64,000 bases of DNA, from contig CM055912.1 in the NCBI GenBank assembly GCA_029582155.1, forward strand, positions 1,178,001-1,242,000, in the 5' to 3' direction. Below are positions 32,050-44,154 of this stretch, piece after piece; position 1 is the first letter of the stretch, and the number at the start of each line of letters is the position of its first letter. The position numbers and the translations under genes were made by a program. The stretch is from Panopea generosa (taxonomy: Eukaryota; Mollusca; Bivalvia; Adapedonta; Hiatellidae). The notes beneath the pieces are model-generated. The model was not told the DNA's origin. It made no database searches and worked only from the letters and a program-made list of their open reading frames with translations.

Positions 32050-32290
32050 TGATCAGTTAACCTAACCACTGTTTCCTGGGATCCTAAAAGTTTAACCAGT
32101 ACTCGAACACACCACATCTCTGCAAGTAGATGATAACTTTCCCACTTGAATCAGAGGTGGGAGACGAATAATAATGAGACATAATGTTGTATATCAGTCA
32201 TTATGGAGACTGTTGTCGGGTGAGGGTTTGAACTCGCGATCCCTGGATTGATAATCAGATGTGTTACCGTCTGAGCTAATCAGATCCGAG
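32050..32290 (-). repeat. tRNA-headed SINE, - strand (second family)
   Basis: On the - strand a tRNA-like head (complement of gtgttaccgtctgagctaat for the A box and gggtttgaactcgcgatccc for the B box) is followed by a body with gactttcccactt-type sequence and an accagtact tail. A forward relative is at 48265-48480. Confidence 0.7.
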
Positions 32291-32576
32291 AATAATCTTG
32301 AATCCTTTTTATTAATAAACTCAATAATTAATGAGCACAGAAATAAGATTCTTTTTACCACATAACTCAGGAAAACGATTTACCAAGTCATCTCTATAAG
32401 GAGAGAAAAATCGTATTTTTGCCAAATCATTTAATAAATTCAATAATAAAAGTGCACTCAGAGAAGATTCTCTATTTATTTATGATATTTGTACAAACTC
32501 TTTGTAATTGGTTCATGATGTTATTATGAAAATACAAGAACATCTTCACTGAATTCCATACTGTAAAACTACTTGA

Positions 32577-33560
32577 GAAGGGGACCCAAAAGGGTAAAAT
32601 TGGGAATTACAAAAATCGTTTTCTTAAGAACCTGCGTGTCAGATTTGTTCATATTTGGCATAAATTATCCCTATGTGTAGGGGTTTGATTGCAGATAAGA
32701 ATTTAGTGGCTAAAATTTATAGGGGCCCTGTAAGGGGACTTAGAATTTGACGTAGGGATACTATGGGAAAACAGAAAAATTCTCTTTTTTTCATCTATTT
32801 AGGCAAAATTATTATTCAGTTTGAGTTCCGAAGTATCATCTAGTCATAGGTAATAAGATTTGGTTCAATAAGGAGAATAGACTTTCCATAAGGGGCCAAG
32901 GTGTGTCAAAAAAGGGTTAAAGTAGAAAGTTTTCAAAAATCTTCTTCTCAACAACTGGTCAGTCAAATATCTTCATATTTGATATGGATTATCCCAATGA
33001 GTATGGGTTTAAAGTTTGTACAAATCAAGGGACGATGGGATGTATAGAGGCCCTGAAAGGGGTCTTTTATATAGGAATACTATGGGAAAATGGAAAATTC
33101 TCATTTTTTTTGTCTATTTGGGTAAATATGTTGTTCAATTTGAGATCTAAAGCATTATCTAGTGACAATAAATTTGATTTTGTTCAATAAAGACTCAGGA
33201 TTGAATTTCCATAAGGGGCCAGGGGGTGGATGGGGCAATAAGGTTAAAATTGGGAATTTTCACAAATTTCCTCTCAATATCCTTTCAGTCAAACTAGTTC
33301 ACATTTGATATAAATTATCTTTACATCAGCAAGGATTGAAGATTCTGTATATCAAGAAACTGGGATATATTTGGGCCCTGTAATGTGACTTTTACATAGG
33401 AATTTTATAGGGAAAACTGAACTTTTTCATTTTGCATCCATGTGTACAAAATAAAATTCTTTTTAAAATCTGAATCATTTCTGCTCATAACAAATCGCTG
33501 AGAGTTGGTGATTTAAGTTTTGACAAATTAAGGGGCTGTGTTGTATAAGTGTTCTGTACA
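32577..33560. repeat. Tandem triplication, about 320-bp units, diverged
   Basis: Three head-to-tail units begin near 32577, 32890 and 33217. Each has an 'aaggggnc...aaaggg', then 'ttcatatttg(g/a)(c/t)ataaattatc' or its equivalent, then 'ggccctg...gg' and 'ata(g)ggaatactatgggaaaa' order. The units differ by 20-30 percent by eye, so the triplication is old. No coding capacity. Confidence 0.75.
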
Positions 33561-33594
33561 GGGGAGTATGGAGTATATTTTTATAGAAATAGAA

Positions 33595-33815
33595 ATACCC
33601 AGACCATTACATCAGATGTCAAAGTCAAGAATACACAAAGGTCAAGGTCATGCTTTGATGTAAAAAAAAACCATGAAATTGCATGTCTAGTCTGAAACAT
33701 CATTCTATTACTCTGATATTCATGGATTACTACCTATTGTAATAATATATACTATTTTCATAGACCATTTTGGGGCATGCAACACTTTCTAGTGACATTT
33801 TTATTTTTACATATG
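33595..33815 (+). repeat. Dispersed repeat, copy 1 (shared with 44900-45115)
   Basis: The blocks ttacatcagatgtcaa, acacaaaggtcaaggtcatg, atgaaattgcatgt and acctattgtaataata match 44900-45115 in order and spacing. Confidence 0.7.
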
Positions 33816-33995
33816 AATGTTATGGGAATTTAAAGTAGTTCCTTTTCAAAGCAATCAAGTTTTTGTTCAGTATGGGTTTGGTGGAAGTACATGTATTTAT
33901 CTATAAGTTTTTAAGACGACCCCCCAAAGAGGGTAAATATTGTGGAATTTCAAAAAGTGCTATGGCCACTATGAGTCTGTAGAGCATCCTCAGGA

Positions 33996-34841
33996 TCTCA
34001 CTGAAGAATTACCTCCCTTACATGACAGTAGCAAGATTATTACGCCAAAGAAATTAGAGCTGCTTAAAACAGTTGGGCAATTTTTTTGTTAAAAATGCAT
34101 AAAATGTCATATTTCTTTGTGCATATGGGAACATTGGAACCATTTCATGATTTCTGCAAAGTTTGGGTGACATTGGGAACTTGTTGATAATGCTATAACA
34201 GTTTAAAGGTGCGTAGTGATACACTGCATCAAATGGGCAGAATTGTCAAAAATGAAGGGGTGCCATCAAACCATCGAAATTGTGAAAAAGCAACCTGGTC
34301 AACCTCATGTTTTTTTCTGCATATTTGGACCAACAGAGGACTATCTATGGGAATAAGGCACTTTTAGAACCATTGGTAATTTATCCAGTGTTCCAGAAGT
34401 GCATGTCTCTATATGTAGGTCTCACTGAAGAATTACCTCCCCTACACGACAGTAGCAAGATTATCACGCCCGAGAAATTAGTGCTGTGTAATTTGTTTTG
34501 GCATAGTATTTTTGAAAATGCTTTAAATGCTCATGTTTTTTTTCTACAGATGAGAAGAACATTGTCATGAGTTGTGCCAAGTTTGGCTGACACTGGTTGC
34601 TGTTTGATGAAGATATAACAGTTTGAAGATGCGTAGTGATACACTGCAAAAATTGAACAGAATTGTCAAAAATGAAGGGGTGTCATCAAACCATGGATAT
34701 TGTGAAAAAGCAACCTGGTCAACCCCATGTTTTTTCCGCATATTTGGAGCAACAGATGACAATCTATGGAAAAAAATGCTTTTAGAACCATCAGTAATGC
34801 GTTCAGTGTTCCAGAAGTGCATGTCTCTATATGAAGTACAG
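33996..34841. repeat. 424-bp tandem duplication
   Basis: Copy 1 (33996-34419) and copy 2 (34420-34841) share tctcactgaagaattacctc, gatacactgca, aattgtcaaaaatgaagggg, gtgaaaaagcaacctggtca and ttccagaagtgcatgtctct at the same offsets. Copy 2 is open for 100 codons (34623-34925) and contains EKATWSTPCFFRIFGATDD, a protein-like segment I do not recognise. Copy 1 has a related but disrupted version. It may be a duplicated exon or part of the element that carries the nuclease domain just downstream. Confidence 0.8.
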
Positions 34842-35141
34842 TGCAAAATTAATTGGTATGTGAGACAGCGTTCAAGAAACAGTCATCTGAAGCAGAAGAT
34901 GCTGTGTCATTGTGCGTTTGTTTGATGAGGATTGTTTTATTTATCAAACACGTTTGTTTTAACATATAGAAGTGGATTTTGAAGCTTACAAATGGATTTT
35001 AACAAGTATTTAATGATTTTACAGTGTAAAATTGACTACAGCAGGACAAATTATACAGCATGTATGCTTTATTATAGAGATTTGGGACTGAACAGAGATA
35101 TGTGTGGTGATAAAGTCATCGAGTATGGGTGACAATCAGTT
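34842..35141. other. Stretch between duplication and nuclease domain
   Basis: Possible upstream part of the nuclease gene: an acceptor-like TTTTACAG lies at about 35015-35022, followed by a partly open stretch, but no continuous frame reaches the domain. Confidence 0.3.
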
Positions 35142-35390
35142 TTGTTGGCAGGAACTACCAGACAAAAGAACATATTGGCTCACAGAGCACTCTATACGTG
35201 TTTAAAATGTTTTTCTGAGTTGCCACAGAGCCATGATGTTAGCCATCTGTGTCACAACAGCCTCTGTTTGCGGTTTGACCATCTGAGCCTGGAACCACAT
35301 TTTGTAAACATGGAGAGACAGAAATGCCTTCACACCATGCAAAGCATTGTCTAGGACATAAACAGTATCCAAACTGCATGCTTCAGGTGA
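35142..35390 (+). CDS. I-PpoI-like His-Me finger (HNH) endonuclease domain, apparently frameshifted
   Basis: The frame from 35142 reads ...QKNILAHRALYT...HDVSHLCHNSLCLRFDHLSL...VNMERQKC. Relative to the TTG at 35142 as residue 1, His35 and Asn56 are 21 apart, as are the catalytic His98 and Asn119 of I-PpoI. Cys37, Cys42, His47 and Cys62 fall at the same offsets as the I-PpoI zinc ligands Cys100, Cys105, His110 and Cys125. This matches the zinc-binding loop family of homing-endonuclease-like proteins (Pfam zf-His_Me_endon). After about 35340 the rest of the second zinc site appears in another frame as CLGHKQYPNC, before a donor-like CTTCAG|GTGAGT at about 35390. The copy therefore seems to have a one-base frameshift, and the N-terminal part upstream also has a stop. 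Such enzymes cut double-stranded DNA. What this one serves in the animal (mobile element, domesticated gene or relic) is unknown. Confidence 0.75.
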
Positions 35391-35606
35391 GTTCAACCAC
35401 AAATATGTGTATTGTTCTACTTCTATGATGTTTTATTCATATTTCATACCCCACCCACTCCCTAAAAACAGGTTATGCCAAACTACAAGTTTAAGCCTCA
35501 ATTACATAACAAGAAGGTCAGGTGAATATGTTTTGTGCTGTCGGTCAGCATCATATTGTTGAAATTTGACTACTTTTTGTTTGAAACATGCTTTTTTGTA
35601 AGCCAG

Positions 35607-37905
35607 CTAGCTCTGGCACATTTTGTCGTAAATATTCTTGTCCTGAATTTTTTTAAGTGAGCGCAAAACTTTGGTATTTGATGGGAACTGTGGTCCTACT
35701 GCCTTAATTTTTTCTATTGATGAATTTGCCTGGCCGTTGTTTAAACGAACTGCAGCACTTAATTTTCTGGCTTTGGCATTACAACGGTATGTTACATCTT
35801 TTGGATTTGATGCATTGATTCTACAGTGTAATACCTCAAGCTTATTGGTGTCTGCAGCTTTTCGCGTCTTAATGATGGTGTATTTTCCCAGGCGCACGTC
35901 CAAACATTGAAGAATTTTTATTCTATTCTCACCCTGAATTATGAGAGGCTTGCATTTTGGCATAAACTGTTTTTTCCACATGCAGACTGGTGGCTTGCCA
36001 TGACAACACATTGAAAATTTGGGACATGTTTCCTTACATTTACCAGTAAAACAATCTACAATGGCTGTTTTTACATTCTCACACTTTTCCTGCAGTAGAG
36101 ATAAATAAGTGTTATCAAATTTCTTTTGCAAATTTTTGAATTCACATTGAACTCGGTTACAGACATCTTTCGCAAACCTTCTTTGTATATAGGTGCAATC
36201 TCGTTTTGTGCGAACGGGAAACATTTCGGGAGAAAATACTGTTGGAGTTGTCTTGTTTCTCATTGTTTTTGTTAGGTGAACAACGTCTGCCATTCTTTGC
36301 ACCGGCTTCCCACACATGGCCATTTGTGCTTCATTTATTCCCTTGAACATGTTGCTGTCCCCATCGGTAACCATATTGTTTATTGTTACTGGCAAATCAC
36401 TGTTTAAAATTGCCTCCATGGCTAGTTTCACCTCTCTGCGTTCGTCACCTGAAAAAGATACAATGCGAGTGTTTCATTTAATCTTGTAAAAAGAAATTTC
36501 TTTGGCTTGTGTTAACGTGCTATTCAAATTAAGTCGTTGTGTTGGCCAGAGACAAGCATTTAGTGAAGTATAGATATTTCATGATTAGGTACATTTAATT
36601 ATGTTGTTATAAATACAGTTTGAAATATATATATATATATGTGTATATAATAAGGATATATGTCAGGCATTAGTGGCTCAGCTTAAAATTATTTTTTTAA
36701 ACTTAATAATATTTATTATCAGTACTATAGAAATATTATCATGCGTTATAGTGTTTCATTTTTTTTTCTTGGTTTTTCGTTATTCGTGATTTGTTTTTCA
36801 TTTATTATTATCTCCTTTTAAGAAGAATATTATAAGCTTACAACTTAGAAATGATAATTGAAAAGAATAAAAAGTAATGCACTCTACCTATTGACTGGTT
36901 ATCCTTCAGACTTTTACTGCACCCTCCCACCTTGTTACAAGTTGCAGCATCTCTATGAGAACAAAGTTTGCTTCCAGCATTCATTGCAATCACCTTCTTA
37001 TGTTTTGTTTGCAATGCAATGATTGTTGTACTGACTTGAGTTGCTGGCTGCATTGGAGTTGTCTCCCCTGTATGTCTCAGACTTGTTGTACTCGGAATCC
37101 ACCCCAGCTATAATAGAACAATCCCTGCCAAATCCACAGGCTTCATTTTTTTTGATGACTTGGCACCTGGCTCGGTGAAAACTAGCTTCTGCCACCTCTG
37201 TCACTTTATCTGCTACAAAATTGCAATGAGTTTGCATGGATTTGTAAGATGGAGGCGGTATTTTCAAACAAACCAACAGATATCGCAAGTCATTTGGACC
37301 AATTTTAGTGTCTGGCAGTCCCGCTGCTACTGACAGGTTGATATCAGCTGGATTCGGTCCACGTCGACCAGTTTCTCTGTATAAGTTATATGTTTTGCCC
37401 GTAAAGCCACATTTAGCACATTTTAGTTTCTTGCACCATCCAAATGACATCTGCTTGTCAAATTCCATGCTCAACTCCAATTTTCCAACGCAGGTGTCAT
37501 CCCAGAATCTGTGTCCTGCATAATTCTCAAAAAACATATCCGCAGTCTTTCTCAAATGGAAAATACGGTAGGTACACAGCTCCTTTTTTTCACTTTCATT
37601 TTTACTACATGGTTTTAGTGCATCTTCTATAGCACTGACAGATGGCTTGCCTGGCCTTAAAATCTTTGTGGCTGGTATATATTCTTATCAACTGCTCCAC
37701 ACAGTAAAATGTCTGACTTTTTGTCTTGTATGACAACACTATCATAAGCATCTTTTGTCATTCTCTTCAGTGTGGTTGGTTGATTGCTGGAATCAATACC
37801 AGACCATCTTTCCATGCAAGCTAGTATTCTTCTTGGATCTTTTTGGAATTGCGAACTCTTACACTCTTTATTGAGCATTTTTGAAGGATATCGTGTATTT
37901 CGCAT
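35607..37905 (-). mobile_element. Mutator-like (animal type) DNA transposase with one intron
   Basis: The - strand coding order is as follows. First is a short N-terminal part (37905-37657, starting MRNTRYPSKMLNKECKSSQF). The central part (about 37670-36998) holds a CAKCGFTG zinc-ribbon-like motif, then NLYRETGRRGPNPADINLSV, then GFGRDCSIIAGVDSEYN. A segment with VSTTIIALQTKHKKVIAMNA and GSKLCSHRD follows. A spliced junction, ATAG|GTAGAG (about 36889) to TTTTTCAG|GTGACG (about 36449), restores SIGDERREVKLAMEA. The last exon runs to a stop at 35607 and contains VTDGDSNMFKGINEAQ, CTGKC-type cysteine pairs and CCHGKPPVC. VDSE and TDGD are candidate catalytic acidic sites. Two frameshifts (near 37685 and near 37085) keep it from being whole. 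Family naming follows proteins annotated 'Mutator-like transposase domain' in marine invertebrates; terminal repeats were not found. Confidence 0.75.
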
Positions 37906-38299
37906 TTTTCCTGATATTCTGATTTTCTTTCACCACAAAATATATTACTTCCTAGCTCTTTCACAAACTTTTGACAATTGATTAATGTTTAACTTATCTA
38001 CTTATCCCTATACAGGAAAAGGCAGTAGCTAATTGTACAGTACTTTTAAATTTGGACAGTGTCACCTAGGAAGCTGCAGTGTGTGTACATACAGATTATT
38101 AACAGATTATTCAGCCAGGTAAATATATCTACAAACAATGAAATAAAAAGTCTAAGACAAGGTTTTGTTAAGATAATAGCAGATTTATTAAAAAAAAAAC
38201 ATGTAATTCCATATATGGGCATATATTTGAACATCAACATTACATAATATTACATATGAAATGAAACTTTTGAAGTAAATCATAGAATAATCATTTTAG
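37906..38299. other. AT-rich flank of the transposase
   Basis: No coding sequence; a terminal inverted repeat partner could not be seen by eye. Confidence 0.4.
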
Positions 38300-40502
38300 A
38301 ACTGGTATACCGACACTCCATTGAAAGAAAGAAGTCGCCAACAACACATCTTTAGTGTCTGATATGACACTCTCAAAGGAAACGGTAGCAAATTTAGGAG
38401 CAGAACTGTATACAATAAAAGCTCAGACTATGGAACAAAAACTAGCCTTAAAAAATCTTTCCAAAACTATAAACTCTGAAATTGCTGATCTGAAACTAGA
38501 ACTTCAAACTTTGTGCAGAACTAATCAACAAAGTACTGCCCTCATATTACAATGAGTTAGCGCACTCAAAATTATCAAACAAAATACGCAAAGTTACAAT
38601 TGCGCTTGTGAAGTTTGATGCGCATAGAGTAAACGCTCTTAAACTCTTTGCAGAAATTAATACACGAGGGTAAAACAGCATGAAGTGTTAAATCAATGAT
38701 CTCAAAGAAAAGGTTGAGGAATACAGTGCTAATGTACCTCAGTTGGTAGTGCACAACAGTAATCAGGAAATGCATGTTAAAGCGCTAGATATAAAATTAG
38801 AACAGTCGAAAAAAATATCATGGACAGCCATGCACATGTAAACTTAGACAATGCTTTCAAAGCTTTCTCAAATGAACTGTCGGGGAAAATAGACACACTT
38901 TGTTCAACAATGGAAGCTTTATTAGCAAAGCTCACTGAAGTAAATGTAGCTGCTATTGATAAACAGACACATGGTATTATCAGGAATAGATCTAATTGAG
39001 TAACAAAATTGACAACTCGGCAAGCTACAAACATGAAGACCTCTGATTCACCAAATATGACTAAAGCATGGATAGATAGTCAACGTCGAGTAGAACCAAT
39101 AGTTGACTTGACTCATGGTGACGTATATACTGACAGATCATACAGAAAGTAATGACAATGTGTTTTACGAAAAAGGCAAAATCGTATATTATAACTGGAA
39201 TCGGTCCTGAAAGTGATGAAGATGGTTTGAAGGATATTTTATAGGAATCACATACAATTCTGCCAAATTTCTGTATACTTGAAGAATGAATACAGATAGT
39301 TATTAATGAGAATGAATCGAGAATCGTTGAAGACAAAAATACATGGCCTCCAGGCATCTCTTGTCGACCATGGTTAAACCGGTCGGATAACAAAGATACA
39401 ATCAAAGAAGCAACAGTTACCTTTATTAGTCACAGTATGCCCCTTAACATAATGACATGGAATGTTACTGGTATGATAACCGGTATACCGTACATTGTGA
39501 ATGAACTAAAAGCTAAATTTATTGACATATGTGGCATCTCCAAACATTGGCTTTTACCACAAAGCAAGCATCTAATGGATACTATTAGTGATGACTGTAA
39601 TGCACATATCGTTATCAACGATGATCTGAAAACTTTTAATGGCAGGAAAGTTGGCAAAGGTGGTGTTGGATTTCTATGGCATAAATCTCTAGATCACAAT
39701 ATACAGGTGATTAGAACACAACGGTCTTACAAACAAGGTTCACCCAATGCAACATGGGTTTCAAAAAGGCAAGTATCCTGCTGACATTGACGATGTCAAA
39801 CAATCTGTTAGAGGAACGTTTCTTTCGCTTATAAACAGTGGAGTACATTATAACGGCCTAAATCCAGTTTCAGCTGGCAGACTTTATACCACAGTTGTTC
39901 TTCCGCGGGAGTTATTTGGATGCAAACTATGGAAAAATATTTCAAAGACCGATATAAAACAACTGGAAAACTGTCCATCACTTCTGTCTTAAGATAGCAC
40001 AAGGCCAACCCCATCGTAGCTGCTCTGATATGGTTACAGGGTTATTGGGTTTCTCCTGCATAGAAGCATACATTGACTACCAAAAACTTATGCAGGGTCA
40101 ATTTAGAAGATATAGTGAAACGAGTCTTCATGAGATGTTTATTTTAGTTCATAACCGACTGTTCCACAGAAAAACTTGGGTTTGTCCCAGATATTGTAAG
40201 AATTTTAAATAAATATGGTATTTTTGCATTTTGAGTGCTTTTTTAAAAAAGGCTGTCTGAAAAGAAAGTCTTGTGGAAAATAGAATGTAAAAACGTAATA
40301 TTAGAATATGAAAAAGAAAAATGGCGAAGCAGACTGGCGATATCTGAAGATTTCATCATATTCTGTGATGAACATCCGTGCCTAATGCCATTGAACCTGT
40401 GGCGGGTTGCCCTGGGAGTACCAAACTGCTTAGAAGTATTGCCGTTCTTGGCAAAGTTGTGCTGTCGGCATTATTCAGAAATTTTCGAAAAACTTCTGTG
40501 AG
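38300..40502 (+). mobile_element. LINE with large internal deletion
   Basis: An ORF1-like coiled-coil piece (38355-38555, MSDMTLSKETVANLGAELYT) and further decayed ORF1-like stretches come first. They are followed at 39437 by an AP-endonuclease N-terminus (NIMTWNVTGMITGIPYIVNE ... GISKHWLLPQSK ... GKGGVGFLWHKSL). At about 39760 the sequence jumps directly to the RT thumb region (DIDDVKQSVRGTFLSLINSG ... LYTTVVLPRELFGCKLWKN). The catalytic RT core is therefore absent. Tail pieces follow in several frames, including WRSRLAISEDFIIFC and LWRVALGVPNCLEVLPFLAK, to 40501. It is related to the LINE at 21.3-22.9 kb. Confidence 0.8.
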
Positions 40503-40835
40503 AAACTTATTGAAATGTTGACTCTAAAACAAATATGTTATACATGCTAGGCATGGTAGAAGACGACTACAAAAGGTTTTAGCAATAGAACAATTATGAT
40601 GCTAAATGGATTATATATAAAAAAGTTATACGCCTCATAGAATACACGTATTGTTGATTTGAATAACTAAGTGAGATAATGGTGCACTAATAAATGTATT
40701 TAATATGTAAACTATGATAAAACGGACATAAAGATTAATGTCAACCAAACAGAAGCAATTCACTGGTATAACCTGAGTAACCGATATATAAAGCATAAAA
40801 ATATTTATGTGATAATGATGAAAAGATACGTATTA
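40503..40835. other. AT-rich non-coding stretch
   Basis: Nothing recognised; lies between the LINE and the next tandem array. Confidence 0.5.
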
Positions 40836-41080
40836 CTTACGTGTTAATGTATGTGTATAGTACTCGATTACTTACGTGCTAATGTATGTGTAAAGTACTC
40901 GATTACTTACGTGCTAATGTATGTGTATAGTACTTGATTACTGACGTGCTAATGTATGTGTATAGTACTCGATTACTTTCTTGCTAATGTATGTGTATAG
41001 TACTCGATTACTTACGTGCTAATGTATGTGTATAGTACTCGATTACTTACGTGCTAATGTATGTGTATAGTACTAGATTA
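40836..41080. repeat. 35-bp tandem array, about 7 units
   Basis: Unit ttacgtgctaatgtatgtgt followed by atagtactcgattac, with single-base variants. Confidence 0.9.
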
Positions 41081-43860
41081 CTGATGACTGGTATGAAGAT
41101 GATTATTGGTAGAACCTCTGACCTAGGACTGGTGTGAGAGTGTTTATTGGTAGAACCTCTGACCTAGGACTGGTGTGAGGTTGTTTATTAGTAGAACTTC
41201 TGACCTACGACTGGTATGAAGGTAATTATTGGTAGAACCTCTGACCTAGGACTGGTGTGAGGGCGTTTATTGGTAGAACCTCTGACCTATGACTGGTATG
41301 AGGTTGATTATTGGACGAACCTACGACTGATGTGAGGGTGTTTATTGGTAGAACTTCTGACCTACCACTGGTGTTAGGGTGTTTATTGGTAGAACTTCTG
41401 ACCTAGGACTGGTGTGAGGGTGTTTATTAGTAGAACCTCTGACCTACTACTGGTGTGAGGGTGATTATTGGTAGAAACTCTGACCTATGACTGATGTGAG
41501 GGTGTTTATTGGTAGAACCTCTGACCTACGGTTGGTATGAAGGTGATTATTGGTAGAACCTCTGACCTAAGACTGGTGTGAGGTTGTTTATTAGTAGAAC
41601 TTCTGATCTGCGACTGGTATGAAGCCGATTATTGGTAGAACCTCTGACCTAGGACTGGTGTGAGGGCGTTTATTGGTTGAACCTCTGACCTATGACTGGT
41701 ATGAGGTTGATTATTGGACGAACCTACGACTGATGTGAGGGTGTTTATTAGTAGAACTTATGACCTACCACTGGTGTTAGGGTGATTATTGGTAGAACCT
41801 ACGACTGGTGTAAGGGTGTTTATTGGTAGAACCTCTGACCTACGACTGATGTGAGGTTGTTTATTTGTAGAACCTAGGACTGGTGCGAAGGTGATTATTG
41901 GTAGAACCTTTGACTGGTGTGAGGGTGTTTATTGGTAGAACCTCTGACCTTTGACTGGTGTGAGGGTGTTTATTGGTAGAACCTCTGACCTACGACTGGT
42001 GTGAGGGTGTTTATTGGTAGAACCTCTGACTGGTGTGAGGGTGTTTATTGGTAGAACCTCTGACCTATGACTGGTATGAGGTTGATTATTGGACGAACCT
42101 ACGACTGATGTGAGGGTGTTTATTAGTAGAACTTATGACCTACCACTGGTATTAGGGTGATTATTGGTAGAACCTACGACTGGTGTAAGGGTGTTTATTG
42201 GTAGAACCTCTGACCTACGACTGATGTGAGGTTGTTTATTTGTAGAACCTAGGACTGGTGCGAAGGTGATTATTGGTAGAACCTTTGACTGGTGTGAGGG
42301 TGTTTATTGGTAGAACCTCTGACCTTTGACTGGTGTGAGGGTGTTTATTGGTAGAACCTCTGACCTACGACTGGTGTGAGGGTGATTATTGGATGAACCT
42401 ACGACTGGTGTGAGGGTGTTTATTGGTAGAACCTACGACTGGTGTGAGGTTGTTTATTGGTAGAACCTCTAACCTAGGACTGGTGTGAGGGTGATTATTG
42501 GATGAACCTACGACTGGTGTGAGGGTGTTTATTGGTAGAACCTACGACTGGTGTGAGGTTGTTTATTGGTAGAACCTCTAACCTAGGACTGGTGTTAGGG
42601 TGTTTATTAGTAGAACCTCTGACCTACGACTGGTGTGAGGGTATTTATTGGTAGAACCTATGACTGGTGTGAGGGTGTTTATTGGTAGAACTTCTGACCT
42701 AGGACTGGTGTTAGGATGTTTATTTGTAGAACCTCTGACCTACGACTGTTGTGAGGGTGTTTATTGGTAGAACCTACGACTGGTGTGAGGGTGTTTATTG
42801 GTCGAACCTCTGACCTATGACTGGTGTGAGGGTGATTATTGGTGGAACCTACGACTGGTGTAAGCATGTTTATTGGTAGAACCTCTGACCTAGGACTGGT
42901 ATTAGGGTGTTTACTGGTAGAACCTCTGACCTATGACTGGTGTGAGGGTATTTATTGGTAGAACCTATTACTTGTGTGAGGGTGTTTATTGGTAGAACCT
43001 CTAACCTAGGACTGGTGTTAGGGTGTTTATTGATAGAACCTCTGACCTACGACTGGTGTGAGGGTATTTATTGGTAGAACCTATTACTTGTGTGAGGGTG
43101 TTTATTGGTAGAACCTCTAACCTAGGACTGGTGTGAGGGTGTTTATTGATAGAACCTCTAACCTAGGACTGGTGTGAGGGTATTTATTGGTAGAACCTAG
43201 GACTGGTGTTAGGATGTTTATTTGTAGAACCTCTGACCTACGACTGTTGTGAGGGTGTTTATTGGTAGAACCTACGACTGGTGTGAGGGTGTTTATTGGT
43301 CGAACCTCTGACCTATGACTGGTGTGAGGGTGATTATTGGTGGAACCTACGACTGGTGTAAGCATGTTTATTGGTAGAACCTCTGACCTAGGACTGGTAT
43401 TAGGGTGTTTACTGGTAGAACCTCTGACCTATGACTGGTGTGAGGGTATTTATTGGTAGAACCTATTACTTGTGTGAGGGTGTTTATTGATAGAACCTCT
43501 GACCTACGACTGGTATGAAGCTGATTATTGGTAGAACTTCTGACCTAGGACTGGTGTGAGGGTATTTATTGGTAGAACCTCTGACCTAGGACTGGTGTGA
43601 GGGTATTTATTGGTAGAACCTCTGACCTAGGACTGGTGTGAGGGTGTTTATTAGTAGAACCTCTGACCTACGACTGATTTGAAGGTGTTTTTTGGTAGAA
43701 CCTCTGACCTAGGACTGGTGTGAGGGTGTTTATTGGTAGAACCTCTGACCTAGGACTGGTGTGATGGAATTTATTGGTAGAACCTCTGACGTAGGACTGG
43801 TGTGACGGTGTTTATTGGTAGAAAATCTGACCTAGGATTTGTGTGAGGGTGTCTAGTGAT
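41081..43860. repeat. Large 41/34-bp tandem array, about 70 units
   Basis: The long unit is gactggtgtgagggtgttta, then ttggtagaacctctgaccta plus one base. A shorter unit lacks the seven bases ctctgac and reads straight from agaacctac to the next gactgg. Long blocks are duplicated: 41690-41990 recurs at about 42055-42355, and 42700-42960 recurs at about 43200-43460, showing repeated segmental exchange. Some units keep all - strand frames open (for example 43117-43365), which I regard as incidental. Confidence 0.95.
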
Positions 43861-44154
43861 AGAGCTAGAAAAATGGCATGGATGATTTGTAGAAGTTTGT
43901 AATCATTTTAACAGTGTTTGTTCTTCTACATGTAACTATTCTATTAATGTTTCTAATGCTGAATTAATTTGCCATTGATTTGAATGCTAAAGTATTTAAC
44001 CAATGTTTGTAGTGCTACATTGTTTTGCAAATCCTTTTAAAGCTACAATATTTAACCAATTTTGTAATTCATAGATGTAGTTATTTTTCCAATGTTTGTT
44101 ATGCTATTCCATGCCAGTATATATATGTTACAATGGTATGTACAATGTGTATTG
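43861..44154. other. AT-rich intron-like stretch
   Basis: Contains repeats of the phrase 'ttaaccaatgtttgtagt' with variants; no exon. Confidence 0.4.

Follow-up and report, generated by a model that had tools for sequence, protein, structure and literature searches.

The nuclease and transposase relics

The window, meaning the whole 64,000-nucleotide stretch of DNA that was analysed, carries the relic of a His-Me finger nuclease gene on the plus strand. A DDE transposase relic (35505–37944) lies beside it on the minus strand in convergent orientation and is part of the same repeated unit, which bears out the earlier note on this DNA in placing the domain next to a transposase (Table 1). The nuclease frame read from 35142 translates to HDVSHLCHNSLCLRFDHLSLEPHFVNMERQKC. 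The ORF at 35133–35351 matches the Pfam family zf-His_Me_endon with a score of 42.2 bits (cut-off 27). Its match to HNH_3 in the Pfam scan stays under the cut-off of that family.

Table 1. Features of the truncated element and the adjoining repeat fragment within the window
Feature	Position	Strand	Evidence or remarks
LTDR-like fragment, related subfamily	33993..34417	+	81% identical to the LTDR at 34418..34866; last ~30 bp missing
Left LTDR (long terminal direct repeat) of ~450 bp; carries short terminal inverted repeats GGTCTCAC...GTGAGAC	34418..34866	+	Alignment edge common to 25/29 family loci; paired LTDRs in siblings
His-Me finger nuclease gene relic	34992..35354	+	In-frame TGA 35130-35132, open 35133-35351, TAG 35352-35354
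Open stretch with His-Me finger core (zf-His_Me_endon)	35133..35351	+	Pfam PF05551, E 1.2e-10
C-terminal zinc-site remnant CLGHKQYPNC, shifted to another frame	35348..35377	+	Sequence; siblings have it in frame
DDE transposase relic, C-terminal exon; early stop 35607-35609	35505..36473	-	PF20700, E 1.8e-12 (35610-36473); 90% identity to sibling ORF
Transposase relic, N-terminal part, several shifted frames	36820..37944	-	PF20700, E 9.4e-23 (37001-37684); tblastn with sibling ORF
Remaining internal region as far as the truncation; right LTDR missing	37945..38301	.	Sibling homology stops at 38301

The likeness to I-PpoI, a group I intron homing endonuclease of Physarum polycephalum, had been proposed from residue spacing, and this spacing holds. 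His35, Cys37, Cys42, His47, Asn56 and Cys62 correspond to I-PpoI His98, Cys100, Cys105, His110, Asn119 and Cys125 at a constant offset of 63. The catalytic His and Asn and the core zinc-ligand Cys and His residues of the I-PpoI group are found both in the window and in sibling copies of the same genome. The remnant of a second zinc site (CxGHxxxxxC) was also found in another frame as claimed; a frameshift after the in-frame TGA throws it out of the nuclease frame. This C-terminal site is in frame in the siblings, where it reads CLGHKQYPDC, and is missing from the frames of two further loci (L043 and L044). The nuclease here differs from I-PpoI in being encoded by a transposon in a probable animal nuclear genome and in its length (134 residues in an intact-looking sibling, against 163). 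When searched alone against PDB sequences using phmmer, the 73-residue window ORF gave no match. With a profile built from eight nucleases of its own genome, including siblings and divergent relatives, the three top matches among PDB sequences were all I-PpoI, in the same register and weakly (E 0.088–0.11; next match 0.66). PF05551 was above its cut-off in the window and in 6/6 related proteins scanned. A search of the window's own genome with this family scored 150 places out of 502 candidates, all 150 above the cut-off, and 14 control genomes gave 0 places, so the match goes beyond chance. The observation of a predicted His-Me finger core is confirmed as real, resting above all on the Pfam match. 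A literature search under the name zf-His_Me_endon returned nothing. In IMG/VR, the window ORF had 18 candidate stretches, one of which was confirmed, a 22-residue match (55%) on a single contig (L031, 2472–2537).

The transposase is broken as well, with shifted frames in its N-terminal part and an early stop in its C-terminal exon. An intron probably lies between approximately 36453 and 36888, with edges read by eye. A right LTDR was sought in the window and none was found. With two broken genes and a lost end, the window copy should be inert, incapable of transposition or nuclease cutting. The element starting at 34418 appears to have inserted after TGTA into the LTDR fragment at 33993–34417, the other side of which has been lost; a search of the window for the 31-bp tail that this fragment lacks, asking for at least 20 of 31 matching bases, found no further copy. 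The head-to-tail LTDR pair (33993–34866, the first repeat shortened) recurs on contigs C1 and C24 within longer duplicated stretches, and a similar pair is apparently present on C18 too. The stretch from C1:101075549 onward, 98.3% identical, duplicates window positions 32142–40470; it exceeds 8 kb and includes the broken element and its flanks. Positions 32587–37982 recur on C24 with 93.4% identity. The broken copy was thus apparently duplicated along with its flanks. Further downstream, the window contains a tandem repeat with a 35-bp unit (40832–41082) and a second one with a 41-bp unit in about 72 copies (41086–43863). Both lie where the GC skew of the window is strongest.

Sibling copies and element architecture

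A search of the same genome (1.47 Gb, 39 contigs) with the window ORF gave 150 scored matches (E no higher than 1e-3) from 519 candidates. The search for paralogues suggested in the earlier note thus found many related copies, some of them intact-looking, flanked by the transposase and LTDRs. Of the 30 loci retrieved, one is the window itself (L001). The remaining 29 (L002–L030) all align to the window across the nuclease region and into the transposase on the opposite strand. Their main stretches are approximately 89–98% identical to the window, and the alignment starts at the edge 34413–34420 in 25 of them. Both large transposase ORFs, which match Pfam PF20700, were matched in convergent orientation to the nuclease in all 11 family loci of ten kb. 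In the siblings the unit is flanked by two direct repeats of approximately 455 bp each, which carry the same short inverted repeats as the left LTDR of the window. The element ends were sought by pattern in the 11 family loci and both were located in six. All six exhibit target-site duplications of 4–5 bp, read by eye (ATGA, TTGA, TTAA, TTATA, ATTA and TCAA).

An intact-looking sibling on contig C14 (L037) measures 4,634 bp between its TTAA duplications and has two LTDRs around both genes. It encodes a nuclease of 134 residues and has two transposase ORFs (379 and 323 residues); the motif DVVH (for C/DxxH) and a pair of Cys/His clusters can be made out by eye in the transposase. Tandem arrangements are present in two other loci. 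The first, from another family (L050, C1:74783712-74793711), is a multimer with one LTDR per 5,076-bp unit; its units are 99.98% identical over the 4,925 bases compared, and six nuclease places occur at 5,076-bp spacing. The second (L049) has a period of approximately 3.84 kb and a putative LTDR.

These copies bear directly on the origin of the gene, for which the earlier note had offered "an element or domesticated gene family". The element is upheld by the paired LTDRs and target-site duplications, and domestication is set aside, the window copy being a pseudogene whose near relatives are transposon copies. A host gene domesticated from a homing endonuclease, with a spliced downstream exon, was considered as an alternative, and a consensus-like splice donor can be read by eye after the zinc site near 35390. 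Splicing at this point is not needed, because the ORFs of intact siblings run through the zinc site and end in frame there. The window copy also contains an in-frame stop and a frameshift, and its nuclease dN/dS values against three siblings (1.1, 1.4 and 1.7 over 73 codons) are as expected of a decaying copy. With the near relatives sitting in multi-copy transposons that have target-site duplications, a domesticated host gene is highly improbable.

Comparison with KolobokP transposons

The window feature is almost certainly the nuclease gene of a decayed and truncated KolobokP DNA transposon, judging from its sequence, with the transposase placed by PF20700 and by motifs read by eye in a sibling. 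This identity is supported by the PF05551 and PF20700 matches, the one shared unit, the paired LTDRs, the target-site duplications, the convergent pairing, the multimer, the substitution pattern between nuclease families and the likeness to the published description. KolobokP was described by Kojima & Bao 2022 (Mob DNA 13:24, PMC9587614) from seven animal phyla, including molluscs, and is richest in bivalves. The mollusc origin guessed in the earlier note is plausible from this richness and from the contig sizes, which are at least 42 Mb down to C19 and 8.6 Mb for C20. The hallmarks given there are LTDRs of approximately 450 or 660 bp with their own short terminal inverted repeats, a target-site duplication of 3–5 bp and multimers of the form (LTDR-INT)n. 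The KolobokP nuclease belongs to the I-PpoI group, and its gene follows that of the transposase downstream, on the opposite strand (PMC9587614), an arrangement also exhibited by the window, 11/11 family loci and 8/9 divergent loci. In oyster, the autonomous families are 4,022–4,748 bp and the nonautonomous families 1.7–3.3 kb (PMC9587614).

The likeness to the published elements therefore covers the DDE transposase with a convergent downstream I-PpoI-like nuclease, the LTDRs of approximately 450 bp with their own short terminal inverted repeats, the short target-site duplications, the multimers and the length of L037, which is near that of the autonomous oyster elements. The window copy differs from published KolobokP in being truncated and mutated, in keeping only the left LTDR and in adjoining a fragment of another LTDR. 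KolobokD, KolobokE, KolobokH and Kol0 share the Kolobok-type DDE transposase, but other accessory proteins replace the His-Me nuclease in them and they are without the LTDR architecture (PMC9587614). The finding is real, is explained by a published transposon lineage and is already known. The presence of a slime-mould-like enzyme in a probable animal genome is explained as part of this composite-like lineage.

Within the part that matches, the nucleases of nine divergent loci in the same genome are 46–60% identical to the window ORF; aligned with those of the window family, they are 35–59% identical. Eight of the nine have a convergent transposase beside the nuclease; the exception is L044, in which no transposase was detected within its 10 kb. 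LTDRs around the divergent nucleases are seen in L047 and L050, and partly in L045. Of the enzymes studied biochemically, I-PpoI is the closest and is encoded in an intron (PMC9587614 and PDB names), which would favour a relic of a homing element or group I intron that came to lie beside an unrelated transposase by chance. In the window family, however, the nuclease and transposase share one repeated unit between paired LTDRs, and the repetition of the convergent pairing across such divergent nucleases, some of them with LTDRs of their own, largely refutes chance. We consider a homing relic very unlikely and retain the identification as KolobokP. For 19/116 of the places listed for PF20700, a PF05551 place that is also listed lies no more than 6 kb away, with 17 of these 19 pairs convergent, and 97/116 are without a listed one at that distance. 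PF20700 need not be confined to KolobokP.

Possible roles of the nuclease

The earlier note had called the role of the domain unclear. This stands in so far as a function of the nuclease here is still a proposal only, but roles have already been proposed in print, where they are called speculative: the nuclease would cut inside or at the ends of the LTDRs and so induce unequal crossover (PMC9587614). An intact KolobokP has two LTDRs of approximately 450 bp, each with its own short inverted repeats, flanking both genes, with the DDE transposase read inward from one end and the small I-PpoI-like His-Me nuclease from the other end. The transposase would move the whole element or a single LTDR by means of the LTDR ends. 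The nuclease would cut DNA at a site inside the LTDRs or at an LTDR junction, and repair from the other LTDR or from the sister chromatid would then add units and keep the composite structure, as in the published proposal. From the sequences compared, LTDR cutting that leads to a gain of units is the likeliest mechanism, held with roughly even confidence.

A short block, AAC(C/G)TG(G/A)TCAA(C/T), is shared by the LTDRs of three families, F1 (L034), F2 (L050) and F3 (L044). It is the best interior block shared by these families and lies at nearly equal positions in the LTDR (294, 304 and 295). In a post hoc test, the block score was reached by 0/60 shuffles with 16-base windows, 0/60 with 20-base windows and 3/60 with 14-base windows. 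The exact word CCTGGTCAA was not found in L046 or L048, and F3 carries a variant of it. Three other families (L049, L053/L054 and L055) were searched for the block, in the LTDR or in the DNA upstream, and it was not found; the best match in L053/L054 is 9/16 on the nuclease strand and 12/16 on the other strand. A pattern search gave 44 places against 0 in the reversed-pattern control; the pattern itself held a word typical of F2, so these places add no independent family. Present in three of six families, the block would be a candidate cut site in some of them, and it was not found in the family of the array described below. It could equally be a site for the transposase or a promoter site.

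This tandem array of nuclease genes is located at C13:7706595-7737151, where 16/16 scored nuclease frames are without a stop. Twelve of the 15 spacings measure 1.70–1.72 kb and the other three 3.24–3.26 kb. The one unit that was read (L052) has an open nuclease frame of 153 residues (PF05551, E 1.4e-12). Its transposase consists of an N-terminal piece only, which covers PF20700 positions 5–63 of 357, scores 25 bits, under the cut-off of 26.5, and matches part of the sibling N-terminal transposase ORF (E 1.8e-7). The sibling C-terminal transposase ORF was also sought in L052 and gave no match (best E 0.54). A second array on C13, with a period of 4.17 kb (L055), contains a 641-base piece that is 98% identical to the L052 unit over 377 bases. 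A 467-bp segment of L055, bounded by perfect inverted repeats of 21 bp, resembles an LTDR. The L052 unit retains the right end only of an LTDR of this type, the left part being missing. At least one unit of the C13 array has kept the nuclease without the transposase core or a full LTDR.

The array also bears on the alternative that the nuclease is retained for the chemistry of excision or integration together with the transposase, and not for unequal exchange. PMC9587614 leaves room for a circular intermediate that is cleaved where its inverted repeats abut, and the nuclease and transposase do remain paired. Against this stand the 16 scored open nuclease frames of one array, most of which lie too close together to leave room for a full transposase. 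The single array unit read, without the transposase core, fits a transposase-independent role, or merely recent duplication. A role in excision or integration is a possible reading that we hold tentatively, as somewhat unlikely. The C13 array may have been made by nuclease cutting or by plain recent duplication, and a KolobokP nuclease that sustains tandem arrays on its own is an unlikely reading. Arrays of this kind would amount to nuclease-driven satellite DNA if unequal exchange does result from nuclease cutting. No description of a nuclease-bearing array of approximately 1.7 kb without the transposase core was found in the main text of the KolobokP paper as consulted (PMC9587614), and the C13 array and the shared LTDR block may go beyond what is given there.

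A nuclease that really drove growth in copy number by cutting the repeats of its own element would be a eukaryotic selfish nuclease with DNA arrays as its target. Families in this genome, including the array unit with a nuclease but without a transposase core, are natural cases for that proposal. The pattern of substitution was compared for nucleases other than those of L048, L050 and L051, in which the frames are broken or partial. Within families, dN/dS is scattered from 0.16 to 1.26 on few changes. Between families, pS is near saturation (0.675–0.87) while pN is 0.27–0.50, and on this basis the nuclease looks to be under purifying selection between families, in the lineages that spread.
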